DNA from: a virus
Direction: 5' to 3' (one strand)
IMG/VR virus record: IMGVR_UViG_3300020183_000250
Location: 1 to 34,851 of that record
Length of the DNA: 34,851 nucleotides
Shown: piece by piece, positions 1,948-33,738 of the stretch
How the letters are laid out: each line of letters opens with the position of its first letter
Numbering within the stretch: position 1 is the first letter of the stretch
Position numbers and translations under genes: made by a program
Notes under the pieces: generated by a model
What the model saw: the letters and a program-made list of their open reading frames with translations, nothing else
What the model was told of the DNA's origin: nothing
Databases searched by the model: none

Positions 1948-3963
1948 ATGGCAAATTTTACAACTTCTCCTGGAGTAGCAATCAGTGAATTAGATAACAC
2001 CTTTTTAACTGGCCAACCCATTCAAGCTGGTGCTGCTATTATAGGCCCAACAGTTAAAGGTCCTGTTGAAAAACCAACCCTTGTAACCACTTATTCAGAT
2101 TTTGTAACATTATTTGGTGATACATTTGTAAGTGGTGGTCAATCATATTCTTATTTAACTTCAATTGCCGCAGCTAATTATTTCAACTATGGAGGAACTT
2201 CATTATTAGTTGCTCGTGTAGCAAGTGGTTCCTACACTTCAGCAATTACTAAAGATATAAACTCAGGAATAGGAATTACTTCAGCATCAGCTGTTCTTAA
2301 TTTAACGAATGCTGTTACTCAAGCATATACAGCTTCATTTAATGGAGTAAACGTAATATTATCAGGATCATCTGTTCAAAATATATTCAACAATGCTACA
2401 TCTTCAGGTGTTATTCCTTCAAACCCAACTAACTTCTATACAAATACAACTATTAACAGTAGTGCATCATTTATTTCTCCTAATATGACTGTAACTGCTT
2501 TAGCTCAAGGTATTGCTGGAAATTTGTATTATTATGTTTCCGGTTCAACTACAGTTTATTATAGTGGAGGAACTAATGCATCTTCTTTTGTCCTAGAAAC
2601 AATTTCAGAAGGAATCCTTATGAATAACTCAGGTTCTAACATGTTAGGATCTAATGGGGCCTTAAATTCAGGATCAGTATCTAATATTCGTTGGGAAATT
2701 ACAAATGCAAATACTGGGTCAGGTACATTTAATGTATTAGTTAGACGTGGTAATGATATTACTGATAATAAAGTAGTGTTAGAAGCTTGGAATAATTTAA
2801 CATTAGATCCAAATTCAACACGTTATATTTCTAGAATAATTGGTAATCAAGTATTAGATTATAATTCTGTAAATAATCAAATGGAATTATATGGTGAATA
2901 TCCAAATAATTCAAAATATATTCGTGTAAAAACTGTTAATTTACCTACACTAAATTATTTTGATTCTAACGGAATTGCAGTAAGTGCTTATACCTCATTA
3001 ATTCCTCTTAATGGAAGTGGTTCAGCAGGCGGTTCATTTTATAATGCTATTGGAAGTGTAAATAGTAACATCACTGTATACGATGCTATTTCAACTAATA
3101 CACAAGGATTAACAGGTGCTAGTTATAATAATATGATTGCACTTTTAGGTAATCCTGAAGCATATCAATTTAATGTACTATTTACTCCTGGTTTATTAAA
3201 TGATATCCATGTTACACAAGTTACTAATATTATCAATAATACAACTGCTAGAGGTGATAGTTTGTATGTAATGGATTTAGGAATATATGGTAGTTCACTT
3301 GGAGAAGTAGTAACACAAGCTCAAACTCGTGATACTTCTTACGCTGCAACATACTGGCCTTGGGTACGCATTATCGATCCAGGAACAGGAAAACAAGTAT
3401 GGGTTCCAGCTTCAACAGTAATCCCAGGTGTATATGCATTTAATGATAAAGTATCTGCTCCATGGTTTGCACCTGCAGGCATTAACCGCGGTGGGTTAAA
3501 CACAGTTTTACAAGCTGAATTGAAACTAACACAAGGTAATCGTGATACATTATATAGCAATAATATTAATCCAATTGCAACACTACCCCAACAAGGTGTT
3601 GTAGTATATGGTCAGAAAACATTACAAAAAGCTCAATCTGCTTTAGATCGTGTAAATGTACGTCGTTTAATGATTGAATTAAAATCATATATTCGTCAAA
3701 TTGCAGATACAATCGTATTTGAACAAAATACAATCACTACAAGAATAGCATTTACTTCAAGAGTTACTCCATATTTGGAATCAATTCAACAAAAACAAGG
3801 TTTATATGCATTTAAAGTAGTAATAGATGATACAAACAATGGTCCAGCAGTAATTGATCAAAACCAATTAATAGGTCAAATTTATATCCAACCAACACGC
3901 ACAGCTGAATTTATTTCATTAGATTTCATCTTGATGCCTACAGGAGCTGAATTCCCAGGGTAA
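1948..3963 (+). CDS. Contractile tail sheath protein, copy B (gp18-like paralogue)
   Basis: A second tail sheath protein of 671 residues, clearly paralogous to the preceding gene along its length. Shared blocks include QAGAAIIGPTVKG near the N-terminus, the PWFAPAGINRG block, YGQKTLQKAQSALDRVNVRR, and the end QLIGQIYIQPTRTAEFI. It differs mainly by about 80 extra residues in the N-terminal half, between the LLVARVASGS and SFVLETISEGI blocks. That insert is rich in Ser, Thr, Asn and Val and is likely a surface-exposed domain. It has its own late-promoter-like motif. Both copies look intact, with no stop or frameshift, so this is a functional duplication rather than decay. Possible outcomes are a mixed sheath or alternative virion forms; the sequence cannot decide. 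Confidence 0.95.
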   Translation: MANFTTSPGVAISELDNTFLTGQPIQAGAAIIGPTVKGPVEKPTLVTTYSDFVTLFGDTFVSGGQSYSYLTSIAAANYFNYGGTSLLVARVASGSYTSAITKDINSGIGITSASAVLNLTNAVTQAYTASFNGVNVILSGSSVQNIFNNATSSGVIPSNPTNFYTNTTINSSASFISPNMTVTALAQGIAGNLYYYVSGSTTVYYSGGTNASSFVLETISEGILMNNSGSNMLGSNGALNSGSVSNIRWEITNANTGSGTFNVLVRRGNDITDNKVVLEAWNNLTLDPNSTRYISRIIGNQVLDYNSVNNQMELYGEYPNNSKYIRVKTVNLPTLNYFDSNGIAVSAYTSLIPLNGSGSAGGSFYNAIGSVNSNITVYDAISTNTQGLTGASYNNMIALLGNPEAYQFNVLFTPGLLNDIHVTQVTNIINNTTARGDSLYVMDLGIYGSSLGEVVTQAQTRDTSYAATYWPWVRIIDPGTGKQVWVPASTVIPGVYAFNDKVSAPWFAPAGINRGGLNTVLQAELKLTQGNRDTLYSNNINPIATLPQQGVVVYGQKTLQKAQSALDRVNVRRLMIELKSYIRQIADTIVFEQNTITTRIAFTSRVTPYLESIQQKQGLYAFKVVIDDTNNGPAVIDQNQLIGQIYIQPTRTAEFISLDFILMPTGAEFPG

Positions 3964-3979
3964 AAATTAAAAAATTAGA

Positions 3980-3988
3980 TATTTATAA
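3980..3988 (+). promoter_or_regulatory. Putative phage late promoter motif (TATTTATAA)
   Basis: The motif lies 21 nt before the tail tube ATG. Its context AGATATTTATAATAAA matches the copy before sheath B. Confidence 0.6.
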
Positions 3989-4009
3989 TAAAGAATTAAA
4001 TAATATAAA

Positions 4010-4498
4010 ATGGCAATTTTAGATCAAAATCAAATATTTTTTACCCCGTTTGAGCCAAAACAAAGTAACCGCTTTGTAGCTACAATCGATGGTGTTCCTG
4101 CCTATTTAGTTAAAGGTGTAAGTGCAGTTAACTTAACTCAAACAGCAGTTGCTCTTAACCATATCAACATCCAACGATATGTAAAAGGAAAAACAGTTTG
4201 GGGTACAATTTCATTTACATTATATGAAGCAATTACTCCAAGTGGTGCTCAAGCAGTAATGGAATGGGTACGTTTAGGACACGAATCAGTAACAGGTAGA
4301 GATGGTTACTCTGATTTCTACAAGAAAGACATTACGTTTAACGTAATCGGACCTGTAGGTGATATCGTTTCTGAATGGGTTATTAAAGGAGCCATTATTA
4401 CAAGTGTTAACTTTGGTGACTATAGCTATGATGATGATGGAACCCCAGTAAACATCTCAGTTGAAGTACAACCAGATTACTGTGTATTGAATTTCTAA
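4010..4498 (+). CDS. Tail tube protein (gp19-like)
   Basis: A 162-residue protein of the T4 gp19/phage tail tube type, which stacks as hexameric rings to form the inner conduit for DNA. Features that fit are the N-terminal EPKQSNRFVATIDGVPAYLVKGV, the QRYVKGKTVWGTISFTLYEAI strand pattern, the helix ALQ-like segment with VMEWVRLGHESVTGRDGYSD, and the acidic-aromatic C-terminus (NFGDYSYDDDGTPVNISVEVQPDYCVLNF). Length is close to T4 gp19 (163 residues). Position directly after the sheath genes is the classic T4 order. A strong terminator follows within 30 nt, so this gene ends the sheath-tube transcription unit. Confidence 0.93.
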   Translation: MAILDQNQIFFTPFEPKQSNRFVATIDGVPAYLVKGVSAVNLTQTAVALNHINIQRYVKGKTVWGTISFTLYEAITPSGAQAVMEWVRLGHESVTGRDGYSDFYKKDITFNVIGPVGDIVSEWVIKGAIITSVNFGDYSYDDDGTPVNISVEVQPDYCVLNF

Positions 4499-4524
4499 TA
4501 TTAGATTAAACAACAAATACAATG

Positions 4525-4560
4525 AAAGCTCCAAAGAAATTTGGGGCTTTTATTTTTTTT
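4525..4560 (+). terminator. Rho-independent terminator after tail tube gene
   Basis: Bases 4525-4535 pair with 4540-4550 in an 11-bp stem (AAAGCTCCAAA / TTTGGGGCTTT, one G-T pair) closed by a GAAA tetraloop, followed by a T-rich tract to 4560. It separates the tail tube gene from the secreted-protein gene. The 3' arm also contributes the TTTG of a host-type promoter. Confidence 0.85.
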
Positions 4561-4571
4561 CAATATATTAG
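4540..4571 (+). promoter_or_regulatory. Bacteroidota-type promoter overlapping the terminator
   Basis: TTTG (4540-4543), a 20-nt spacer and TATATTAG (4564-4571) match the Bacteroidota primary-sigma consensus TTTG / TAnnTTTG at 5 of 6 fixed positions of the -10. The ATG at 4576 follows only 4 nt later, so transcription would start at or near the start codon (leaderless or nearly so). Confidence 0.6.
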
Positions 4572-4575
4572 ACTT

Positions 4576-6543
4576 ATGAAAAAACTATTATTATTTTTAC
4601 TATTAGCTAATATAGGATATGGTCAATATTGTCCTTCTTTAGGACCTGATCAAATATTGCCTTGTGGTGTAGGGTCAATTACTTTAACCGCAGATTTAAG
4701 TCAATGTGGTGTAGGTACTAACCCCAATCAAACAACAAATTATACTGTAGGAAGCATACCGTATGTTCCTTTATTAAATACAGGTACCCAACTGTTTATG
4801 ACAGATGATTCTCAACAAGGGCCATTTAATATTGGATTTTCATTTTGTTTCTTTGGACAAACGTATACTCAATTTTGGGTAGGTTCAAATGGATGGATTT
4901 CATTTTCTCCTGGTCAACCAACCACATTTACAACACAAACAATTCCTACAGGTAATTTTTTAGTACCTAAAAATTGTATTATGGGTCCTTGGCAAGATTG
5001 GCATCCTGGAATTGGAGGTCAAATTAGATACCAAACTACAGGAGTTGCCCCTTGTCGAAAATTAACTGTATCTTGGACAAACATGCCTATGTTTAGTTGT
5101 ACAGGCAACCAAGGAACATTTCATATTGTAATTTACGAATCTACAAATTATATTGAAAATTATATCCAAAACAAACCAGCTTGTTTGCAATGGCAAGGAG
5201 GAACAGCTACTGAAGGTATCCACAATACTGCAGGAACAATAGGTATTACAGTCCCTGGCCGTAATTCAACTGCTTGGACAGCAACAAATGATGCTTGGCG
5301 TTGGACTCCTAGTGGACCAGTAGTTAATCCTATTTTAGTATGGTATCAAGTAGGTAACCCTGCTCCAATTGGAACAGGAAATTCAATTACAGTTACACCA
5401 AACGGACCTACTCAATATACTTGTCATTTAAGTTACCCAACATGTAATGCTGGTTGGAATGTTTGTAATGGAAATGGTACTGCTATTGGGCCTGATACAA
5501 TATTAGTTGTACCTGGTCCCCCAATCCCATCAACAGGACCTATTAATGGATCAGATACAATATGTTATTTAAGTTCAAATGAAATATATGATGTTCCTTT
5601 AAATCCAACTTACAATTATTTATGGAGTACAGTTGGAACCCTAACCTCAGGACAAGGAACAAATCAAATTACAGTAGATTTTAGTTTATTCCCTGCAGGA
5701 TTTATCCCTGGTGCTATTCAAGTAACACCTGAAGCAAATGGATGTATTGGGCCAACAGTATCATTTGATGTAACAATATTTAATATAGTTCCTGTAATTG
5801 ATCCCATAGGACCATTCTGTTCGTACGACGAATTTGTTACTTTAAACGCGGTTCCTGCTGGAGGAATATTTAGTGGTAATGGTATTGTAGGTAATAATTT
5901 TACACCTCCACTTGCGGTAGGAACAAATATACTTACTTATACTTATACTCAAAGTGGATGTATTTTTGATACTACAACTACAGTAATTGTTAATCCACAA
6001 CCAACTCTTGATTCAATTACTCCATATAATCCATTCTATGAATTATGTGAAGGCGATTCAATAACATTAACATTTAGTGCCCTGTCAAATTTATCAGGAT
6101 ATAATGAATGGGCATTTATTGGAACAATTTATCAACAAGATAATTTAACTATTTCATTTGAAACCCCAGGAATGTTTCCTATTTCAGTAGCACATTATTC
6201 AAATGGATGTGTTTCTCCTATACAACAAACAGTAGTTACTATCGCACGTTGCCCTGAATTGTTATTTTATATTCCAAATACTTTTACCCCAGATGGAAAC
6301 GAACATAATAATGTATTTCAACCTGTATTTACAAATGGATTTGACCCATATGATTTTCATTTAGAAATTTACAATAGATGGGGAGAATTAATTTATGAGT
6401 CGTATAATTGTACAGAATATTGGGACGGAACATACAATAATACACCTTGTCCTGTAGGATTATACACATATAAAATCCAATTTGGATTTAAAGAAACAGA
6501 TAATGATCAAGTTGTAAGTGGAAATGTTAATCTTATTCGATAG
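4576..6543 (+). CDS. Secreted multidomain protein with T9SS type B (gliding-motility-associated) C-terminal domain
   Basis: A 655-residue protein. The start at 4576 is chosen because the upstream in-frame ATG at 4522 lies in the terminator stem, and because 4576 gives a textbook Sec signal peptide (MKKLLLFLLLANIGYG, likely cleaved before Q17). Residues about 60-245 form a Cys-containing beta-rich domain (IGFSFCFFGQTYTQFWVGSNGWISF, GPWQDWHPG, IGITVPGRN), as in Bacteroidota surface proteins. Residues about 255-555 hold repeated PKD/Ig-like segments. Residues 566-655 are a CHU_C/T9SS type B sorting domain: IPNTFTPDGNEHNNVF, FHLEIYNRWGELIYES, YWDGTYNN, CPVGLYTYKI, ending GNVNLIR. Known role of the family: Sec export, then outer-membrane translocation by the host type IX system. 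I infer a host-derived accessory gene exported to the infected cell surface. A virion adhesin is the alternative, but the signal peptide argues against it. Confidence 0.85.
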   Translation: MKKLLLFLLLANIGYGQYCPSLGPDQILPCGVGSITLTADLSQCGVGTNPNQTTNYTVGSIPYVPLLNTGTQLFMTDDSQQGPFNIGFSFCFFGQTYTQFWVGSNGWISFSPGQPTTFTTQTIPTGNFLVPKNCIMGPWQDWHPGIGGQIRYQTTGVAPCRKLTVSWTNMPMFSCTGNQGTFHIVIYESTNYIENYIQNKPACLQWQGGTATEGIHNTAGTIGITVPGRNSTAWTATNDAWRWTPSGPVVNPILVWYQVGNPAPIGTGNSITVTPNGPTQYTCHLSYPTCNAGWNVCNGNGTAIGPDTILVVPGPPIPSTGPINGSDTICYLSSNEIYDVPLNPTYNYLWSTVGTLTSGQGTNQITVDFSLFPAGFIPGAIQVTPEANGCIGPTVSFDVTIFNIVPVIDPIGPFCSYDEFVTLNAVPAGGIFSGNGIVGNNFTPPLAVGTNILTYTYTQSGCIFDTTTTVIVNPQPTLDSITPYNPFYELCEGDSITLTFSALSNLSGYNEWAFIGTIYQQDNLTISFETPGMFPISVAHYSNGCVSPIQQTVVTIARCPELLFYIPNTFTPDGNEHNNVFQPVFTNGFDPYDFHLEIYNRWGELIYESYNCTEYWDGTYNNTPCPVGLYTYKIQFGFKETDNDQVVSGNVNLIR

Positions 6544-6548
6544 GCCAA

Positions 6549-6557
6549 TATTTATAA
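6549..6557 (+). promoter_or_regulatory. Putative phage late promoter motif (TATTTATAA)
   Basis: The motif lies only 4 nt before the ATG at 6562 and 5 nt after the stop of the secreted-protein gene, restoring late-type transcription after the inserted unit. Confidence 0.5.
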
Positions 6558-6561
6558 CCAT

Positions 6562-6933
6562 ATGAAACTAGATAGTTTACGTACGTTAGTTAAAGAGGAG
6601 CTTAGTAAAAAGCTAAATGAGGAATACCAAGACAAGTTTAAAATGGTAGGTATGCTTATTACTAACATTAAAAAACGCCCTCAAAAAGAAATATTCTCTG
6701 ATATTCGCTCTATTCCAGGTGTGACAATAGCATCTGTAAAAGAACCTATGGATTATAATGAACAAAATACAGAAAAATTCCAATCTATTTTAACTGTTAA
6801 AGTTGATGGGCATCCTTGGATCGCAACTAGTGGTTTTGATCGTTCAAAAATGGAAGACATACGTAAAGCAATATTAAAAGTAGAAGGAGTTTTATCATAT
6901 AATGTAAATCCTGATAATATTTCTGCTCTTTAA
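6562..6933 (+). CDS. Unknown small protein with amphipathic N-terminal helix
   Basis: A 123-residue protein I do not recognise. The N-terminus (MKLDSLRTLVKEELSKKLNE) is a charged amphipathic helix. The rest alternates beta and alpha segments (MVGMLITNIKKRP, IFSDIRSIPGVTIASVKEP, ILTVKVDGHPW, MEDIRKAILKVEGVLSYNV), compatible with a small ferredoxin-like alpha/beta fold. Residues 18-20 are L-N-E, which fits the (L/I)xE cleavage rule of T4-type prohead proteases, so the N-terminus could be a removable head-targeting peptide; this is speculative. It is preceded by a late-promoter-like motif and followed by another, so it appears to be an independent late gene. Confidence 0.75.
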   Translation: MKLDSLRTLVKEELSKKLNEEYQDKFKMVGMLITNIKKRPQKEIFSDIRSIPGVTIASVKEPMDYNEQNTEKFQSILTVKVDGHPWIATSGFDRSKMEDIRKAILKVEGVLSYNVNPDNISAL

Positions 6934-6935
6934 TA

Positions 6936-6944
6936 TATTTATAT
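6936..6944 (+). promoter_or_regulatory. Putative phage late promoter motif (TATTTATAT)
   Basis: A variant of the late motif, 29 nt before the ATG of the gp26/gp51-like gene. It is a weaker match than the copies before the sheath and tube genes. Confidence 0.4.
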
Positions 6945-6973
6945 AAGACAATAAGTTATAACAAATAAAAATT

Positions 6974-7705
6974 ATGGAAGAATTTAAAGTACCAACTGAA
7001 AAAATCGAATTACCTTCAAAAGGTTTAGTTTATCCCCCTGAAAGTCCCCTTGCTCAAGGTTATGTTGAAATGAAATACATGACTGCAAAAGAAGAGGATA
7101 TCTTACTTAATGCAAACTACATTAAAAACGGTACTGCAATTGATAAATTATTAAAAGCATTAATTGTAACCCCAATTAATTATGATGATTTAATTGTTGG
7201 AGATAAAAATGCAATCATGATTGCTTCTCGTATTTTAGGATACGGCCCAGAATATTCATTTGAATATGAAGGTGAAAGTTATACAATTGATTTATCTCAG
7301 TTAGATAGTAAACCATTAGATGAATCTTTGTTTACAAAAGGAGTAAATGAATTTGCTTATACATTTCCTTTTTCTAAAACAGAAATTACTTTCAAATTAC
7401 TTCAACATAAAGACGAAAATAATATTACTCGTGAATTAGATGGTCTTAAAAAGATTAACAAAGAAAATTCACCTGAATTATCTACTCGTTTAAAATATAT
7501 GATCACATCAGTAGATGGAAATCGAGAGTCTAGAGTAATCCGAGAGTTTGTTGATAAACACTTACTAGCTCGAGATGCTAAATCATTAAGAACTCATATC
7601 AAAAAATTCCAACCAGATGTAGATCTAACTTTTTTTCCCTCCGGAGATTCGGATAGAGTCAGTATTCCAATTGGGATTAAGTTTTTTTGGCCTGACGTCG
7701 ATTGA
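6974..7705 (+). CDS. T4 gp26/gp51-family baseplate protein
   Basis: A 243-residue protein of the T4-type baseplate hub/assembly family. The diagnostic N-terminal pattern is IELPSKGLVYPPESPL, followed by GYVEMKYMTAKEEDILL. A central block LLKALIVTPINYDDLIVGDKNAIMIASRILGYG and later FVDKHLLARDAKSLRTHIKK also fit. The C-terminus is VSIPIGIKFFWPDVD; related proteins, as I recall them, end shortly after a similar FFxP segment. Its last 35 nt overlap the next ORF in another frame, over a run of seven T. It sits two genes before the tape measure, the position in many tailed phages of the tail assembly chaperones, so a role in tube/baseplate assembly is likely. Confidence 0.82.
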   Translation: MEEFKVPTEKIELPSKGLVYPPESPLAQGYVEMKYMTAKEEDILLNANYIKNGTAIDKLLKALIVTPINYDDLIVGDKNAIMIASRILGYGPEYSFEYEGESYTIDLSQLDSKPLDESLFTKGVNEFAYTFPFSKTEITFKLLQHKDENNITRELDGLKKINKENSPELSTRLKYMITSVDGNRESRVIREFVDKHLLARDAKSLRTHIKKFQPDVDLTFFPSGDSDRVSIPIGIKFFWPDVD

Positions 7706-7976
7706 TCAAGCTAATAAGGCTAAAGTAGCCATCTATAAACAGATACATCAAATTTGCTTTTTTGGAAAAGGAGGATACAGCTGGCCTATTGTCTATAATA
7801 TGCCAGTGTATCTTCGTCGTTTTATTTTTGATGAAATGAAACAATTTTATGATGAAGAAAAATCAGCCCATGAAAAAGCTTCAAAACGATCTCGTTCGGG
7901 AAAAAACACATCTGAAACTCAAACATTTGATATGGGTGCTCCTTCAAAAGGTAAAGCACCTGTTAAATATCAATAA
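7671..7976 (+). CDS. Small protein upstream of tape measure, possibly made as a frameshift extension
   Basis: A 101-residue ORF whose conserved-looking part begins around IDQANKAKVAIYKQIHQICFFGKGGYSWPIVYNMPVYLRRFIFDEMKQFYDEEKSAHEKASKRS and ends in a low-complexity tail. No ATG is available before the conserved segment. The only upstream options are TTG at 7671 or CTG at 7692, both inside the preceding gene. The frame is +1 (equivalently -2) relative to that gene. This arrangement directly before a tape measure gene resembles the G/GT tail chaperone pairs of lambda-type phages, so it may be translated as a fusion by slippage at the T run. A separate TTG-started protein is the alternative. The exact function is unknown. 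Confidence 0.65.
   Translation: MGLSFFGLTSIDQANKAKVAIYKQIHQICFFGKGGYSWPIVYNMPVYLRRFIFDEMKQFYDEEKSAHEKASKRSRSGKNTSETQTFDMGAPSKGKAPVKYQ
7681..7690 (+). other. Candidate programmed frameshift site (T7 run)
   Basis: In the upstream frame the codons are AAG TTT TTT TGG. A +1 slip of the tRNA on the second TTT re-pairs perfectly with TTT at 7686-7688 and continues GGC CTG ACG in the downstream frame; a -2 slip also works. If the run were really six T, the two ORFs would be one continuous frame, so a homopolymer length error must be considered. Confidence 0.4.
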
Positions 7977-7992
7977 AAGCTTGCATTTTTAA

Positions 7993-8001
7993 TATTTATT
8001 A
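7993..8001 (+). promoter_or_regulatory. Putative phage late promoter motif (TATTTATTA)
   Basis: A variant of the late motif, 17 nt before the ATG of the tape measure gene, preceded by AA as in other copies. Confidence 0.5.
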
Positions 8002-8018
8002 CAGAATAATTTAAAGAT

Positions 8019-10316
8019 ATGGCTGACAAAAATAAAGAAGCTCAGGAACTTAAGGGAATTTTAGGGGAGGTAAATGCTGCCCTAAAAGAAATGGAGGATC
8101 GCAATAAAAGGATTAAAGATGGTTTTGCATCCTCTAAAGATTCTTTATCTAGTTTAGTAACATTAGCCTCTGAATTCAATAGTCACCAAGATCAAACTAA
8201 ACGATTATCTACAGATCAACTAAAAAATCTTTCTGAAAAACTTCAAAAAGAAAAAGAAAATCTTAGATTATCTCAAGAATCTCTTTCTGCTCAAATAAAC
8301 AGTACAAAAACTGAAAGAGACAAAGCAAAGAATCAAAAAGAACATTTAGAAAAACTTCAAAAAGAAAAAGGGTTTAATAAAGAACGCCAAGCTCAAATTG
8401 ATAAATTACTAAATAAAAGCATAGAATTTACAAATACCCTTCAAGACCAACAAGCTGTATTCGCCCAATCTCAAGACATATTAGAAGATATGGATGGTGA
8501 TATAGGGAATTTAGAAAAAGATTTAAAAAAAGCAGTTCAAGCTGCTAAAGGATTTGAAATATTAGATAAAATAGGGGGAAAATTAGATAAATTAAACACC
8601 CCCTTAGATGAATTCCTCCAACCATTTGCTGTTATAAATAAAATTATTGGATTTGTTGTTGGAAGCGTTACAGAACTTGATAAAGAGTTAGGAGATGCTG
8701 CAAAAAGTATGAACATGACATATGAGGCTGCTGGTAGATCTCGTATGGAAATGACTAAATTTGCTCAAGCAACTGGAGATACTTTAGTAAATTCAAAACA
8801 TTTACAAGAAAGTGTTTTATCTATTAACGAATCTTTAGGTTCAAATGTTGCATTCGAACAAATGTCCGAATCATTCCAAAAAGATGTAACATTTTTATCT
8901 AAAATGTCTCACTATGCTGGTTTAACAGCAGAAGAAGCTAATAATATAGCTAAACTAACATTAGCAACTGGACAGAGTGCTGAAGATTTCTCCGGAGAAT
9001 TAATGGCCCAAACAAAACTTTCAGGTATTCAAAAAGGTTTAATTCTTAATGAAAAAACCGCATTAAAAGAAATCTCCAAAACATCAGCAGCTATTAAAAT
9101 GTCGTTTCATGGCTCGGCAAAAGGATTGGGTGATGCATATGCTAAAGCAAAGGCATTAGGTACTAGTTTAGATAAAGTTGATGATATAGCAGGTAGTATT
9201 CTTAATTTTGAAGAATCAATTGAAGCGGAATTAAGTGCAGAATTATTAACTGGTAAAAATTTAAATTTAGAAAAAGCACGTGAAGCTGCTTTGAACAATG
9301 ATATAGCAACAGTAGCAGAAGAAATTGCTAAAAATGTCGGTAGTGCCGCTGACTTTGCTAATATGAATAGAATCCAACAAGATGCAATTGCAAAATCTGT
9401 TGGAATGACTCGTGAAGAATTAGCTGCTTCACTTCAAGAACAAGAATCTTTAAAAGCTATAGGTGCGGCATCTGTAGAAGATGCAAAAGCAAAATATGAT
9501 AAGCTCCGTGAAACTATGACTGCTGAAGAAGCCATGGTTGCATTAAAAGATGAAGAATTAGCTAAACAATTTGAACAACAGAATATACAAGAAAATTTAG
9601 GAGCAGCCCAACTTCAGATGGCTGACTCAATGAATAAAACTCTTATTCCTGCCTTGATTACTATCAACAAAAATTTCAATGATATGTGGAATAAAATAAA
9701 AGATATTATTGATAAATTAGGGGGAATGAAAACTATTTTAGTTATAATTGGAGGAATTATGGCAGCTAAAATGATTAAAGGTATTTGGGATTTTGCTTCG
9801 GGAGTAAGTACTGCTATTAAAACTGCTAAAGCATTAGCTGCTGCTGAAAAACAAGGTGCCATAATGTCTATTATATCGGGAGCATGGAAATCTTTGGGTC
9901 CAATTCCATTTGTAGGAGCTGCATTAGCCACCGCTGCAGTAGGTGCAGGTATTGGATATCTTATGAGTCAAATGAATGATGGAATTATTTCCCCATCATC
10001 AGGAGGTAGTGGTTATGGTGATAGAGTATTGTATGGTCCTGAAGGTGCAATTTCATTTAATAATAAAGATACTATTGTAGCTGGCACAGATTTATTTAAA
10101 GCAAACGATATGGTATCTGCCCCTAAAGGTGCAGTTCAAGTAGGAGGTGGAACTTCATCTAAAGATATAGCTGAATTAAAAGGTGCTATAATGGCTTTAG
10201 CAGCACGTCCTGTAAATGTAGCAATTGATGGTAAAAAAGTAATTGAAGCAACAACAGGTGCTCAACCAAATACTCAAGGAGTTGAATCTGCTAAGAATAG
10301 TTTCAAAATGCAATAA
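8019..10316 (+). CDS. Tail tape measure protein
   Basis: A 765-residue protein. The N-terminal ~185 residues are a long Lys/Glu/Gln-rich coiled coil (repeated KLQKEKENL-type heptads). A hydrophobic stretch follows around 205-220 (AVINKIIGFVVGSV), then helical regions, then a hydrophobic central-C-terminal region (MKTILVIIGGIMAAKMIKGIW; IPFVGAALATAAVGAGIGYLM). The C-terminus has the NDGIISPSSGGSGYGDRVLYG and AISFNNKDTIVAG patterns typical of tape measure proteins, which have an 'N-D-G-I/V ... D-T-I-x-A' end. The family sets tail length and helps DNA cross the host membrane. Modest length suggests a medium tail, unless coupling to length is unusual. Context (just after chaperone-like ORFs, before baseplate genes) agrees. 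Confidence 0.85.
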   Translation: MADKNKEAQELKGILGEVNAALKEMEDRNKRIKDGFASSKDSLSSLVTLASEFNSHQDQTKRLSTDQLKNLSEKLQKEKENLRLSQESLSAQINSTKTERDKAKNQKEHLEKLQKEKGFNKERQAQIDKLLNKSIEFTNTLQDQQAVFAQSQDILEDMDGDIGNLEKDLKKAVQAAKGFEILDKIGGKLDKLNTPLDEFLQPFAVINKIIGFVVGSVTELDKELGDAAKSMNMTYEAAGRSRMEMTKFAQATGDTLVNSKHLQESVLSINESLGSNVAFEQMSESFQKDVTFLSKMSHYAGLTAEEANNIAKLTLATGQSAEDFSGELMAQTKLSGIQKGLILNEKTALKEISKTSAAIKMSFHGSAKGLGDAYAKAKALGTSLDKVDDIAGSILNFEESIEAELSAELLTGKNLNLEKAREAALNNDIATVAEEIAKNVGSAADFANMNRIQQDAIAKSVGMTREELAASLQEQESLKAIGAASVEDAKAKYDKLRETMTAEEAMVALKDEELAKQFEQQNIQENLGAAQLQMADSMNKTLIPALITINKNFNDMWNKIKDIIDKLGGMKTILVIIGGIMAAKMIKGIWDFASGVSTAIKTAKALAAAEKQGAIMSIISGAWKSLGPIPFVGAALATAAVGAGIGYLMSQMNDGIISPSSGGSGYGDRVLYGPEGAISFNNKDTIVAGTDLFKANDMVSAPKGAVQVGGGTSSKDIAELKGAIMALAARPVNVAIDGKKVIEATTGAQPNTQGVESAKNSFKMQ

Positions 10317-16189: not shown

Positions 16190-16570
16190 ATGCCACACTT
16201 TGTAGATTCACGTATAAATGAAAATGTAGAAATAGCAACTGAATATTTTAAAGCATTAGTTTCTTCTAACTTTAAAGATGCTGAAAATAGACAAAAACAG
16301 TCTGCTGGGTCAATAGGTTTTATTCCATATAATATATCCTTTACTATGGATGGTATAGGAGGAATTAAAATCTATAATGAATTATCTTTAGACACTAGTT
16401 TTCTCCCTGCAGGATATACTAAAACTACTGATTTTATAGTAACAGGAGTAGATCATAAAATACAAAATGGGGATTGGGAAACAAGTATAAATGTAACCCT
16501 TATTCCTCGAACAAGCCCTATAAATAATGTTATCACCAGTAGTTTATCCTTTACTTCTCAAACTGAAGAA
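16190..16570 (+). repeat. Diverged direct repeat, copy 1 (hub domain)
   Basis: About 380 nt at the start of the SleB-like gene recur at the start of the VanY-like gene. The first ~70 nt are nearly identical, with only scattered third-position changes, and the 5' protein blocks match closely. It marks a tandem gene duplication followed by exchange of the enzyme domain. Confidence 0.85.
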
Positions 16571-17227
16571 ACTAGAGTTGATACTGCTCCTACAAATAAT
16601 AATACTGTATCTTCTCCTGCATCTACTACAGGTGTTGCTGTAACAGGGGGTGATGCTGATTTTTGGTCTTTATTAACTATATGTCTTTTTGAAGACGGAG
16701 ATGACCAAGCAAGAGCAGACATAGCTCAGTCTATATATAATCGAGTAGGATCAGGAGCATATTCAACTTCAATAGCAGCAGCAATAAAAAGAGATGGACA
16801 ATACGAACCAGCATTTGCGAAAGGTACTTCAAAAGTATCTACAGTTTGGAAAAATATCCAAAATAAAGCAACTGCTATTGCAGCAGTAAGAGCCACCAAA
16901 CCTAATACATATAAAGATGATACATCTGCTTTAAATGCCCTTAAAAGTGTTTATGAGGCTATAAAAGACCCAGCTAAACAAGAAGCATCTAAAACATTCA
17001 TTCAAGGAAGAACTGATTTTTTAAGTATTAGTCAAGGTACTGTAGATAAAAGAAATGCTAAAGTAAAAGCAGGATCATATGATCCAACTGGTAAACGTGG
17101 AACATTTTTAATGAGAAATAATGGAACCCCTAATAACGTATTTGGGTGGGCATATAATTATATTAAAAATGTTATTGCTCAACCTCCGGGACAAGATTGG
17201 TGGGATAAATATAAAGATCAATTTTAA
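16190..17227 (+). CDS. Hub-domain protein fused to SleB-like cell wall hydrolase
   Basis: A 345-residue two-part protein. Residues 1-~125 form a baseplate hub-like domain, shared almost unchanged with the next gene: SIGFIPYNISFTMDGIGGIKIYNELSLD, then DFIVTGVDHKIQNGDWETSI. After a Thr/Asn/Ser linker, residues ~155-345 resemble the SleB/Hydrolase_2 glycosidase fold: FWSLLTICLFEDGDDQARADIAQSIYNRV, with E168 as the probable catalytic Glu, and GQYEPAF in place of the usual QFS/QYEP segment. The likely role is local peptidoglycan cleavage during injection, as T4 gp5 does on the gp27 hub. Catalysis is inferred from motif similarity. There is no signal peptide, consistent with a virion enzyme. Confidence 0.75.
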   Translation: MPHFVDSRINENVEIATEYFKALVSSNFKDAENRQKQSAGSIGFIPYNISFTMDGIGGIKIYNELSLDTSFLPAGYTKTTDFIVTGVDHKIQNGDWETSINVTLIPRTSPINNVITSSLSFTSQTEETRVDTAPTNNNTVSSPASTTGVAVTGGDADFWSLLTICLFEDGDDQARADIAQSIYNRVGSGAYSTSIAAAIKRDGQYEPAFAKGTSKVSTVWKNIQNKATAIAAVRATKPNTYKDDTSALNALKSVYEAIKDPAKQEASKTFIQGRTDFLSISQGTVDKRNAKVKAGSYDPTGKRGTFLMRNNGTPNNVFGWAYNYIKNVIAQPPGQDWWDKYKDQF

Positions 17228-17229
17228 CT

Positions 17230-17587
17230 ATGCCTCATTTTGTAGATTCACGTATAAATGAAAATGTAGAGATAGCAACTGAATACTTCAAGGCATTAGT
17301 CTCCCAAAAAGATGGAGATAAAGCTTTTGCAGGTTCAATAGGTTTTATCCCTTATAATATGTCTTTTACAATGGATGGTATAGGGGGAATTAAAATCTAC
17401 AATGAATTATCTGTTGATACTAGTTTTTTACCTCCTGGCTATACTAAAACTACAGACTTTATAGTAACGGGCATTGATCATAAAATTCAAAATGGTGATT
17501 GGGAAACTAGTATTACTACTACTTTAATTCCTAGAACAAGCCCTATAAATAATATTATCACTAGTAGTTTATCCTTCCTTAGTCAAA
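17230..17587 (+). repeat. Diverged direct repeat, copy 2 (hub domain)
   Basis: Partner of the copy at 16190-16570. It is shorter by a few codons after residue 25 (SQKDGDKAFAG versus a longer segment in copy 1). Similarity ends around the SQTEE segment, where the linkers and enzyme domains begin. Confidence 0.85.
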
Positions 17588-18099
17588 CAGAAGAAGCCCG
17601 ATCAGACACTGCTCCTTCAGTTAATATCCCTGCAGGTACTGAAGGTGAAAATGGAAGACTCTCGGATAGTGCATTAAAAAGTGTAGGAATGGGGGATAAA
17701 AAATTAGCCATTGAAGCTGCTGATGCCTTTATGAGAATGGTAGAAGATATGAAAAAAGAAGGTTTAAAACCTCGCTTAAGCTCTGCTTATAGAACATTTG
17801 ACACTCAAAGTTCTATATTTGATTGGGAATATTATATATCTACCGGTGGATCATATACTGATAAAACTCCAAAACCAGGAGCTAAAAGACGTAAAAAAGG
17901 TACCGTCGATACAGCAGCAGCCTTCCCAGGAACATCCAACCATGGTTGGGGTAAAGCTATTGATATCTACCCTAAAAATGTACAAGATTGGATTAAGAAA
18001 AATGGTGTTAAATATGGGTGGTCTTGGTATGAAGGAAGATCAGTTAATGAAAACTGGCACTTTACTTATGATCCTTCCAAAACAGAAGTATACGTTTAA
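17230..18099 (+). CDS. Hub-domain protein fused to VanY-like (M15) peptidase
   Basis: A 289-residue paralogue of the preceding gene over its first ~125 residues, but with a different enzyme domain. Residues ~145-289 are a D-alanyl-D-alanine carboxypeptidase/endopeptidase of the VanY/M15 type: SAYR at 185-188, the SxHxxGxAxD motif SNHGWGKAID at 236-245, and ExxH at 274-277 followed by F. H238, D245 and H277 are the expected zinc ligands and E274 the catalytic Glu. All are intact, so an active metallopeptidase that cuts peptide cross-links is expected. It starts 2 nt after the upstream stop. A tail-tip lysin role is inferred from the shared hub domain. Confidence 0.85.
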   Translation: MPHFVDSRINENVEIATEYFKALVSQKDGDKAFAGSIGFIPYNMSFTMDGIGGIKIYNELSVDTSFLPPGYTKTTDFIVTGIDHKIQNGDWETSITTTLIPRTSPINNIITSSLSFLSQTEEARSDTAPSVNIPAGTEGENGRLSDSALKSVGMGDKKLAIEAADAFMRMVEDMKKEGLKPRLSSAYRTFDTQSSIFDWEYYISTGGSYTDKTPKPGAKRRKKGTVDTAAAFPGTSNHGWGKAIDIYPKNVQDWIKKNGVKYGWSWYEGRSVNENWHFTYDPSKTEVYV

Positions 18100-20134: not shown

Positions 20135-20596
20135 ATGTATAGTACTTTGGACCACCCTCGTCGTATGTATAATCAATTCGACTATGATTTTACATTTGAT
20201 AATTTATTGATGAACAATAGACTGTTTTGTACTTTTACTGCAATAGAGGATTTAGAGGCGTTGGTTGATGAATTAACAAAACGCTATTCCATCATGTATA
20301 ATAAAATGTTTGTATTGCATGTTAAAAGCAATAACGAATATGTTATTACATATAATGTTGATCAAGGTAATATCAACGACATCCCCGAAAACACCATTCT
20401 AGTACATAGAAAAAAAGAATCAAACACACTTTATACCATTAATGCTCTAAATGAGTTAATTAAGAAATTAAACGGTGGTGTAGTTGATACAAATTATGCA
20501 GTAAACTGGCACCACTATAGAAATTGTATATTGTTAACTCAACACAATGAGATTAAACAATTGAATACAAAAATATTTAAAATAGTTGAATTATGA
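20135..20596 (+). CDS. Unknown protein in replication operon
   Basis: A 153-residue protein, start ATG in the context AAAAGTTATG shared with other starts. Visible blocks include MNNRLFCTFTAIEDLEALVDELTKRYSIMYNKMFVLHVK, YVITYNVDQGN and RKKESNTLYTINALNELIKKLNGG. An alpha/beta composition with no catalytic signature. I have an impression of similar small proteins next to phage polymerase genes but no function. Its stop overlaps the next start by ATGA, so translation is coupled. Confidence 0.75.
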   Translation: MYSTLDHPRRMYNQFDYDFTFDNLLMNNRLFCTFTAIEDLEALVDELTKRYSIMYNKMFVLHVKSNNEYVITYNVDQGNINDIPENTILVHRKKESNTLYTINALNELIKKLNGGVVDTNYAVNWHHYRNCILLTQHNEIKQLNTKIFKIVEL

Positions 20597-20659
20597 AAAA
20601 AGTAACTCTATCTGAAGAATTTAAAAGAATGCAAAAGCTTGCAGGGATTCAATTAAATG
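20576..20659 (+). repeat. Direct repeat of gene start (tag cassette), copy 1
   Basis: 61 nt (20576-20636) are identical to 20858-20918, and similarity continues to about 20659. The repeat includes the last codons of the upstream gene, the leader, the ATG and the first 23 codons. Confidence 0.9.
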
Positions 20660-20862
20660 AGGCCTTTAATCCATTTTTAGATACTGAAGAAGGTGGATAT
20701 ATGAGAGAATATATTGATTCTATAGCAGAAGAAGAAGGATTAGATTTATATTATCGTAATGAATTCAACATAGCTTTCAATTCAGCATTAGCTAAACTTA
20801 AAAAAGACCATCCTAAATTAGATTTTGAAGCCATCGAAGCCAATAGAGAATCTTTCTTTTAA
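20593..20862 (+). CDS. Small protein with duplicated N-terminal tag, copy 1
   Basis: An 89-residue protein. Residues 1-23 (MKKVTLSEEFKRMQKLAGIQ then LNE) are identical, except for one L/I exchange, to the next gene. The remainder (AFNPFLDTEEGGYMREYIDS...) is unrelated and acidic. The shared segment ends exactly at L-N-E, which matches the (L/I)xE rule for cleavage by T4-type prohead protease gp21. I infer a removable head-targeting peptide, as on T4 internal proteins, but this is not shown. Start overlaps the upstream stop by ATGA. Confidence 0.75.
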   Translation: MKKVTLSEEFKRMQKLAGIQLNEAFNPFLDTEEGGYMREYIDSIAEEEGLDLYYRNEFNIAFNSALAKLKKDHPKLDFEAIEANRESFF

Positions 20863-20941
20863 AATAGTTGAATTATGAAAAAAGTAACTCTATCTGAAGA
20901 ATTTAAAAGAATGCAAAAACTTGCAGGAATTCAAATTAATG
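20858..20941 (+). repeat. Direct repeat of gene start (tag cassette), copy 2
   Basis: Copy 2 of the tag cassette. It retains AAAATAGTTGAATT before its ATG, which in copy 1 is the end of an upstream coding region. This shows that copy 1 was the source and copy 2 derives from it. Confidence 0.9.
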
Positions 20942-21435
20942 AAGATCTTCAAGAAGTTATATTATATGCTACTTGGGTATTAGATACTCCTGAAGCTAGA
21001 AAAGAAGATATAGTTATATCCCCAAGTATTTCTGAAGATAATATTCCTTCAAGTTTTAGTGGGGATTCTACCCCTAATGGATATACTGGGGCTAATAAAA
21101 CAATATTATGTACTAATTACCCATGGACTTTAGTAAGTGAAACCAATGAAGTTAATTTAGAAGATATAAAAATACTAATAGTTAAATTTAAAAAACCACT
21201 TACAGATGTATTCCTAGATGATGATTTTTACATAGAAACCTTTGGAATTGATGAAGAACCAGATTTAGATTATTCTAAAGATATACCACTATCTGAATTA
21301 GTACCATATGGGTTAAATACTAATGATAGATGGTATGGTTGTTATGTAAATAATATTTCTTCTGGTGAGGTAATTGCTAAAAAAGTAGGTTATCAAAGTG
21401 AAAATAGAAGTGAAAGTGAATGGTCATCTTTTTAA
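20875..21435 (+). CDS. Small protein with duplicated N-terminal tag, copy 2
   Basis: A 186-residue protein with the same 23-residue N-terminal tag, ending I-N-E at residues 21-23, followed by an unrelated 163-residue body: DLQEVILYATWVLDTPEARKEDIVISP, then a run of mixed strand segments and a Ser/Glu-rich end (SENRSESEWSSF). No known domain is recognised in the body. The tag-plus-variable-body arrangement resembles T4 internal head proteins or a modular targeting system. A plain duplicated 5' end with no targeting role is the alternative. Confidence 0.75.
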   Translation: MKKVTLSEEFKRMQKLAGIQINEDLQEVILYATWVLDTPEARKEDIVISPSISEDNIPSSFSGDSTPNGYTGANKTILCTNYPWTLVSETNEVNLEDIKILIVKFKKPLTDVFLDDDFYIETFGIDEEPDLDYSKDIPLSELVPYGLNTNDRWYGCYVNNISSGEVIAKKVGYQSENRSESEWSSF

Positions 21436-32868: not shown

Positions 32869-33028
32869 ATTCTATTGGCATAGCAATTGGGATATGCACT
32901 TCAAACAATTAGCATTAATACCTACCATATTCATTATCGCAAGTCGATATAACCAAACGCGTTTTACTATACTTAGTTTCAATTTCTTAGTATGGGACTT
33001 TGGCGTATCTTATTTTAAGTACAAATGA
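32858..33028 (+). CDS. Tiny unknown protein coupled to GH16 gene
   Basis: A 56-residue ORF, MKIKFYWHSNWDMHFKQLAL..., aromatic-rich and basic, with a moderately hydrophobic middle (IPTIFIIASR). It overlaps the preceding tiny ORF by 11 nt and the following GH16 gene by ATGA, so it may mainly couple translation. Function unknown. Confidence 0.5.
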   Translation: MKIKFYWHSNWDMHFKQLALIPTIFIIASRYNQTRFTILSFNFLVWDFGVSYFKYK

Positions 33029-33738
33029 AAAACACAATACAATGGGCCGGGTATGAATGGCTAACAGAAGAACGTTGGGGACAAATGCACCCGGAGAAGC
33101 CTAAGATGTGGTATGATGCTACATGCATTCTTCAAGCAGACAATACAGGTGAGTTGCATTTACTCACAAAGAAACATGAAAAGAAGTTTGGTCAAATCAA
33201 ATCTCCAATTGGAATAGGATTAGTATCATGCACAGAACAATTTGGATATGGTACTTTTAGCATTGAAGCCAAGCTACCTGCAGGACCTAACCTTTGGCCT
33301 GCATTTTGGATGTATGCATGGGAAACATGGCCACCTGAGATAGATGTATTTGAAGCTTACTCATACAGTAATAGCAGTTACATTAATCGCAACATGGATC
33401 TGCTTCGAGGTAAATGGTATCGAGTTCAAACCAATGTGCACTTGGGCCAAGTACCAAACAACTTCAATGCAGGTGCAGAGAATGGGCGAATTGCTCTACG
33501 AAAGGATCCTACCCGACATTTTATTGAGTATCGTGTAGATTGGACTCCAGAACACATACAGATTTGGTATGATGGCAACATGGTAAGATGCATTACAGAT
33601 GCAAGCATCTTATCTCAATTTGTCGGCAAGACAATGAATGTAGTTATTAATAACGGCATACAAGACTCATACGATACCACTCGAACAGAGTTATCCTCAT
33701 TAACAGTAAGAAATTTTAAATACACTCCTTATGAATAA
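33025..33738 (+). CDS. Glycoside hydrolase family 16 enzyme
   Basis: A 237-residue beta-jelly-roll glycanase. The active site PPEIDVFEAY matches E-x-D-x-x-E of GH16, with E105 as nucleophile, D107 assisting and E110 as acid/base. NLWPAFWMYAWE before it and the aromatic YRVDWTPEHIQIWYDG after it are also typical of laminarinase/agarase-type members. It covers the catalytic domain only. No signal peptide, so the enzyme would stay in the cytosol or be released at lysis, unless it is a virion component. The substrate (beta-1,3-glucan, agar, carrageenan or another polysaccharide) cannot be told from the sequence. The next gene overlaps its end by 8 nt. Confidence 0.82.
   Translation: MKNTIQWAGYEWLTEERWGQMHPEKPKMWYDATCILQADNTGELHLLTKKHEKKFGQIKSPIGIGLVSCTEQFGYGTFSIEAKLPAGPNLWPAFWMYAWETWPPEIDVFEAYSYSNSSYINRNMDLLRGKWYRVQTNVHLGQVPNNFNAGAENGRIALRKDPTRHFIEYRVDWTPEHIQIWYDGNMVRCITDASILSQFVGKTMNVVINNGIQDSYDTTRTELSSLTVRNFKYTPYE

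Follow-up and report, generated by a model that had tools for sequence, protein, structure and literature searches.

A Phage Cassette That Probably Displays a Stalked Protein on Infected Cells by Way of the Host Type IX Secretion System

RESULTS

A phage gene carries the features of a type B T9SS cargo protein

The stretch of DNA analyzed here (the window) is a virus record of 34,851 bases that includes tail sheath, tail tube, and other phage genes. The gene of interest (window 4576-6543, plus strand) encodes a protein of 655 amino acids that begins with MKKLLLFLLLANIGYG, continues with Q, and ends with GNVNLIR (Table 1). A longer open reading frame, called mechanically from position 4522, was rejected: it begins within a terminator, and the signal-peptide start at 4576 is common to relatives.

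Table 1. Features of the exported-protein gene and its surroundings in the window
Feature	Position	Strand	Evidence
Tail tube gene, left neighbor, fixed landmark of the insertion site	4010..4498	+	phrog_4542, E 2e-24
Intrinsic terminator hairpin between tail tube and exported-protein genes	4521..4554	+	
TATATTAG box just 5' of the start codon (TATATTNG in close relatives); promoter role uncertain	4564..4571	+	
Extent of the inserted DNA compared with empty-site allele L132; breakpoints approximate	4569..6548	.	blastn
T9SS type B cargo protein, single-chain form, 655 aa, phage-encoded	4576..6543	+	ORF and domain matches
Sec signal peptide, predicted cleavage before Gln17 (Q-rule)	4576..4623	+	sequence and heuristic; PMC5837995
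Head domain, residues 17-313, strongly conserved; without Pfam/NCBIfam family or confident PDB fold match	4624..5514	+	
Head-to-middle joint, counterpart of the I-x-H-N end in free heads	5527..5565	+	fused-protein alignment
Residues 327-481, PKD_6-like middle domain; aligns colinearly with the free middle subunit	5554..6018	+	match to L149
Middle-to-CTD joint LDSITPYN, counterpart of the SPIQHN end in free middles	6001..6048	+	fused-protein alignment
Residues 489-655, Ig-like domain and type B CTD; aligns colinearly with the free third subunit	6040..6540	+	
Type B T9SS sorting domain (TIGR04131 / CHU_C)	6271..6540	+	profile matches
ATATTTATAA box marking the right edge of the insertion; candidate phage late promoter for the gene that follows	6548..6557	+	
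Right neighbor gene, 123 aa	6562..6933	+	weak tail-terminator match, phrog_3907, E 0.008

Substrates of the type IX secretion system (T9SS) require both a Sec signal peptide and a C-terminal domain (CTD) (PMC10994853), and most substrates of signal peptidase I in Bacteroidetes expose a Gln residue (PMC5837995). A preliminary description of this DNA had claimed a signal peptide and beta-rich, PKD-like segments. Both are confirmed by our searches, in that MKKLLLFLLLANIGYG is called as a signal peptide cleaved before Gln17, and the protein matches PKD_6 (PF19408) above its cut-off (E 3e-6). The profile search suggested in the same description recovers TIGR04131 at residues 566-655 of 655 (E 1.8e-11, 44 bits; curated cut-off 35) and CHU_C (PF13585; E 1e-13, 51.6 bits; cut-off 27). 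A NIDO domain, also suggested there, is found nowhere above threshold, the only match being a sub-threshold one (E 0.35) in a relative from record L082. Likewise, the domain search finds no SprB repeats in the window protein; some relatives do have them, mostly with scores near or below the cut-off.

A signal peptide with Gln at position +1 is present in 35/35 representative single-chain (fused) proteins, compared with 52 of the 872 other open reading frames of the operon loci described below (6%, the background of our purpose-made heuristic, which is not a trained predictor). The sorting domain scores above its cut-off in all 20 phage records tested. With frequencies such as these, the domain architecture is not a product of chance. 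The signal peptide, the Q-rule residue, and the type B CTD thus support the routing through the host T9SS that had been predicted, and the observation of a phage gene with the sequence features of a T9SS type B cargo protein holds.

The head domain yields a confident, beta-rich model (pLDDT 92, pTM 0.85, from a 53-sequence alignment). No PDB entry matches this model below an E value of 0.03, and no Pfam or NCBIfam family matches the domain, so that the head, common to phages and Bacteroidota, is a confidently modeled structure without a confident PDB match. Modeled at full length (pLDDT 79, pTM 0.41), the protein is a chain of beta domains, and fragments of Aureispira GhpA are its best fold matches, with low TM-scores of about 0.2. 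GhpA (PDB 9flp and others) is also the best PDB match of the family profile, and it resembles the window protein in its string of Ig/PKD-like domains. It differs in its length of 5898 amino acids and in lacking the head domain of the window protein. We rejected GhpA as a true homologue on the basis of the low TM-scores and because the window protein, searched by itself, does not match GhpA. The strong profile E value is attributable to repeated beta modules, and the likeness, as modeled, is one of bead-string architecture only.

Elsewhere in the window, two tail sheath paralogues adjoin (132-1901 and 1948-3963), as do two proteins (16190-17227 and 17230-18099) that have an N-terminal part in common and carry different lytic domains (cell wall hydrolase versus VanY). 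The neighboring genes at 20593-20862 and 20875-21435 have a common leader of about 20 residues, MKKVTLSEEFKRMQKLAGIQ, beyond which they differ.

The gene is an accessory insertion behind the tail tube gene

The gene had been placed between tail tube and baseplate genes. The tail tube side of this assignment stands, and the same left neighbor is seen in about 50 relatives among the best 80 of 138, whereas the right neighbor is only weakly tail-terminator-like (Table 1). A terminator in front of the gene, also claimed, is indeed present, and the same AGCTCC..GGAGCTTTT hairpin is kept upstream in relatives with the fused gene, with a split operon, or with an empty site. The proposed host-type promoter did not survive comparison with shuffled sequence, which has at least as many promoter-like matches as this region. 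A phage-like TATTTAT box precedes the start codon in most relatives found at other sites. In addition, a TATTTATA box (mostly ATATTTATAA) occurs at window positions 104, 1926, 3979, 6548, 6936, and 10323, shortly 5' of the starts of the sheath, tube, 6562, 6974, and 10344 genes, and is a candidate late promoter of this phage group.

Comparison with related phages at this exact position bears out the proposal that the gene is an inserted accessory gene. Specifically, the near-identical phage L132 has an empty site: blastn blocks covering window 2579-4569 and 6548-9500 adjoin in L132 at about 4556-4560. The flanking DNA is about 87-90% identical (81% further downstream) and the tube protein 98% identical. 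The fused gene is present in 7 and absent from 61 of the 68 tail-tube relatives with enough sequence to judge. Moreover, among 18 syntenic loci the pattern of head similarity is unlinked to that of the tube or gp26-like proteins (Spearman -0.03 and -0.12, respectively), whereas the tube and gp26-like proteins track one another (Spearman 0.85). The tail neighbors were rejected as functional partners because they have no shared history with the head.

The gene at 6562-6933 accompanies nearly all fused and split cassettes at the tail-tube site and is absent between the tube and gp26-like genes in most tail-tube relatives. Its similarity pattern tracks the head domain (Spearman 0.50), and it may belong to the cassette. 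In seven further records (L190, L173, L175, L148, L156, L207, and L192), other small, unrelated genes follow the tail tube gene, a pattern that identifies this site as a general hotspot for accessory genes.

In other phages the same chassis is encoded as three subunits with signal peptides

In record L149, the single gene is replaced at the same site by three small open reading frames, each with a signal peptide, and at least 68 such triads were retrieved in further scans (best 80 matches per scan). The genes are arranged in the order head, PKD_6-like middle (about 187 aa), and Ig plus CTD subunit (about 188 aa). The head is about 200 aa long, and other, larger heads sometimes take its place. 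The free middle aligns with window residues 327-481 (48% identity, E 5e-44, for L149 4492-5055) and the free third subunit with residues 489-655 (36-38% identity, E 5e-37 to 3e-42), in the same order and without overlap. The fused and split forms are colinear, and the window protein is thus the same chassis as a single chain that bears a different head.

Only the third subunit of each triad carries the T9SS domain. As judged by the same heuristic, however, a signal peptide with Gln at +1 is present in 77/77 heads, 84/88 middles, and 84/85 third subunits, far above the frequency in the other open reading frames. In most loci, the stop codon of the middle gene and the start codon of the third share one base (TAATG). 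Triads lie at the same tail-tube site in many phages and at other sites in others. Quick trees indicate that one fusion or fission suffices to explain the middle domain, and that CTDs have moved between the fused and split forms at least two times.

The subunits that lack a CTD end in a characteristic tail, with the consensus P-x-L-x-P-I-x-H-N-COOH, that is common to subunits of different head families. Tails of the I-x-H-N type terminate 70 of 72 distinct CTD-less C-termini and none of 48 third subunits. An H-N or H-D ending is seen in 40/41 distinct head and 30/31 distinct middle C-termini. When the DNA encoding P-I-x-H-N-TAATG-K was searched for in the 2.9 million viral contigs of IMG/VR, 49 of the 50 matches proved to be the operon; the junction pattern alone picks it out. 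The fused proteins have conserved joints at the corresponding places, with the pattern G-P-I..D-T-x-C between head and middle (I323 in 33/35, D327 in 34/35, C330 in 35/35) and L-x-x-I-T-P-Y-N between middle and CTD (I481 and N485 each in 30/35).

Most likely, the tail serves to dock each subunit end-to-end onto the next, a connection that the fused form would make by peptide bond. If the tails dock in this manner, then only the last subunit needs a sorting domain. The products of the operon might then form a multi-subunit, T9SS-exported appendage, in which a CTD-less head and stalk are joined by I-x-H-N tails to the CTD subunit and carried through the host translocon as one complex, with CTDs exchanged to fit host shuttles and with the window gene as the single-chain version. 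We rate the chances of this full scheme as somewhat short of even, and our literature search found no precedent for T9SS transport of CTD-less subunits in piggyback fashion.

A split form in bacteria was considered and rejected on the strength of 297 Bacteroidota genomes, in which matches to the middle domain occur only inside open reading frames of at least 590 aa and a looser junction pattern is found at chance level (7 matches versus 4 in the reversed control). Just upstream of the triad, two records (L231 1473-3932 and L291 1277-3493) encode large proteins that have signal peptides and sub-threshold type A sorting domains (TIGR04183).

The family is widespread in phages and exchanges its sorting domain

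A scan of IMG/VR identified at least 138 stretches that encode relatives, of which the best 80 were kept. These and our other counts report what the scans retrieved (the best 80 matches per scan, biased to the query peptides) and not prevalence, and the carrier contigs are uncultured fragments. Among the best 80, the gene lies between the tail tube gene and a 6562-type gene in about 50 and in other neighborhoods in about 30, for example beside phosphoesterases, DNA ligase, or endolysins. Of the 31 carrier contigs tested, at least 12 encode a large terminase, among them contigs 263, 281, and 436 kb in length. A search of 50,697 phage records returned no isolated phage with the gene, only uncultured megaphages and one faecal contig, and a single full-length relative (54% identical) in the 635-kb metagenomic megaphage LR745206. 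Thus, the gene is by these matches a large family in many unrelated phages, whose hosts are presumably Bacteroidota, and not an oddity of one phage.

TIGR04131 matches four places in LR745206, three of them above the cut-off. The same megaphage (L082 29949-30662, minus strand) encodes a clear relative of the GH16-type protein at window 33025-33738, and so carries both this relative and the fused exported protein. Another record encodes, near the fused gene, a further phage protein that ends in a type B CTD (L039 556-4599); it is 1347 aa long and has ten PKD domains. Record L084 encodes a T9SS protein of Bacteroidota type although its title is Candidatus Competibacteraceae (Pseudomonadota), and this bin is therefore probably contaminated.

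All 36 phage head domains form one clade (support 100/99) that excludes the 20 bacterial homologues, and copies from the tail site and from other sites are intermixed within the tree. Among the 297 Bacteroidota genomes sampled, 64 encode homologues of the head. Values of omega are 0.06-0.18 for the head, 0.01-0.19 for the CTD where it has not been swapped, and mostly 0.13-0.4 for the middle, which shows that the gene is under purifying selection.

The domains of the protein do not always travel together. For example, the window protein is 93% identical to that of L041 in the head and 60% in the CTD, while it is 94% identical to that of L055 in the CTD and 63% in the middle. Neither the head nor the CTD alignment accepts the tree of the other domain (delta lnL 378 and 667); the sorting domain is exchanged among phages within the gene. 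A recent bacterial donor of the window CTD was rejected, as the best matches are only about 41-49% identical (16 genomes from one order).

DISCUSSION

A probable host-dependent route to the cell surface

Type B CTDs need PorP/SprF shuttles, and their known substrates are adhesins; five CTD motifs, A through E, are required for secretion (PMC12618676). A PorP/SprF gene commonly lies directly downstream of its substrate gene, but this is not universal, and 3 of 12 Flavobacterium johnsoniae substrates are orphans (PMC12618676). When type B CTD fusions were overproduced in F. johnsoniae, they were secreted only with a co-produced shuttle, whose levels are limiting (PMC12618676). We found no PorP/SprF shuttle (TIGR03519) in any of 20 phage records, whereas the same profile detects it in 6/6 bacterial genomes, and genomes with head homologues have 5-18 PorP/SprF genes. 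Therefore, the phage cargo must borrow a host shuttle. The phage protein is in this sense an orphan type B cargo, and exchange of the CTD is readily explained as a fit to the shuttle set of the host.

We propose that the gene is an optional phage cassette, or moron, for a cell-surface protein. The infected cell would synthesize the protein, host Sec would export it, and signal peptidase I would cut before Gln17. The type B CTD would then lead the protein through the host T9SS, and a host PorP/SprF-like shuttle would leave on the surface a PKD/Ig-like stalk presenting the N-terminal head. Other phages would build the same object from three separately exported subunits docked by their tails. A surface protein that bears the address labels of the host export machine suggests that infected cells display a virus-made structure, and we consider such a stalked head on the infected cell the probable product of this cassette. 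The T9SS passage itself, the docking by tails, and the biological role are inferred.

The benefit to the phage would most likely come from a changed cell exterior, since it is the infected cell itself that is re-dressed. Such a change could block superinfection, prevent the loss of progeny to host receptors, or alter adhesion. The preliminary description had likewise suggested a superinfection block or altered adhesion, and also dispersal, as possible roles. Flavobacterial phages depend on surface proteins that are exported by the T9SS or involved in gliding, and gld/spr mutants are phage resistant (PMC9233685, PMC13288928). Given this dependence, a surface change or competition for shuttles could plausibly keep other phages out or shield the progeny. 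Given display, we hold a superinfection block only tentatively, and a role in adhesion or aggregation just as tentatively. There are also points against display. Conservation of the head is very high, which is atypical of surface proteins in an arms race, and a phage without a shuttle of its own might export poorly, given the requirement for a co-produced shuttle in F. johnsoniae (PMC12618676).

Some of these observations would also fit a protein that acts in the periplasm, where it engages the T9SS translocon or the limiting PorP/SprF shuttle and mainly stops the display of SprB/RemA-type adhesins that serve as phage receptors. Its effect would be one of competition and not of a surface structure. 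The lack of a phage-encoded shuttle, the retention of overproduced type B CTDs without extra shuttle (PMC12618676), and the phage resistance of T9SS and gliding mutants (PMC9233685) all agree with such competition, and CTD diversity could match different shuttles. However, a competitor of this kind has no need of a 300-aa head, the most conserved part of the protein, or of separately exported head subunits, and for these reasons we regard it as unlikely.

Display can likewise be weighed against a structural role in the virion. Ig-like decorations are common in phage virions, and the window gene lies within a tail gene cluster, so the protein might be an Ig/PKD-domain tail or fibre decoration that merely resembles a surface protein. 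This is improbable for a protein whose representatives all retain a signal peptide with Gln at +1 and an intact sorting domain, whose gene is away from tail genes in many phages and absent from most tail-tube relatives and from near-identical L132, and whose head has a history unlinked to the tube and gp26-like genes. Far less probable still is a host gene that was captured recently and does nothing for the phage, or a contig that is bacterial or mis-assembled. Homologues do exist in Bacteroidota chromosomes, but the synteny repeated in about 50 contigs (of the best 80 of 138), the separation of the phage clade from the bacterial sequences, and the low omega values all speak against it. Thus, display on the infected cell remains the reading that we favor.

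If display is correct, then reprogramming of the cell surface through the host type IX system would be a recurrent, selected strategy of many Bacteroidota phages, from T4-like to huge. In addition, the split operon provides a ready-made test case for possible T9SS transport of CTD-less partners as a complex, and the swapped CTDs provide a natural panel for decoding the specificity between type B CTDs and shuttles.

Relation to known systems

Phages are known to alter the exterior of the infected cell through superinfection-exclusion proteins such as T5 Llp and phi80 Cor, which are small surface lipoproteins that act on one receptor and do not involve the T9SS. The window protein would resemble them in changing the outside of the cell.

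Among bacterial proteins, the closest parallels are the type B cargo proteins of F. johnsoniae (SprB, Fjoh_3952, and the orphans Fjoh_1123, Fjoh_1720, and Fjoh_4934), which have the same Sec signal peptide, Gln at +1, beta-rich stalk, and C-terminal type B CTD. The orphans, like the window gene, have no adjacent PorP/SprF gene (PMC12618676). The window family differs in being phage-encoded, in having no shuttle in the phage records searched, in exchanging its CTD, and in having a split form with CTD-less partners. It is also distinct from SprB-type gliding adhesins, in that the window protein is without SprB repeats and the phage records are without a sprF-type neighbor.

The search of open-access literature returned no description of a type B chassis in fused and split forms, of the C-terminal tail, of how widely the chassis is spread, or of CTD swapping. 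Some viral database entries bear the CHU_C name. In the part of the crAss-like phage study available to us, a T9SS sorting domain is mentioned in passing for ORFs with BACON repeats, and no three-subunit operon or tails are described there (PMC6949934). Cryophage genes with sorting domains are likewise variable accessory genes, for which hijacking of the host system was proposed (PMC7468147). Their domains are type A and are attached to an endoglucanase, a GH39 protein, and a PA14 protein (PMC7468147), whereas the window family is type B, has a different head, is conserved across many phages, and uses a fused/split chassis. Phage-encoded T9SS cargo was therefore already known, and the fused/split architecture is new as far as the open-access literature shows.
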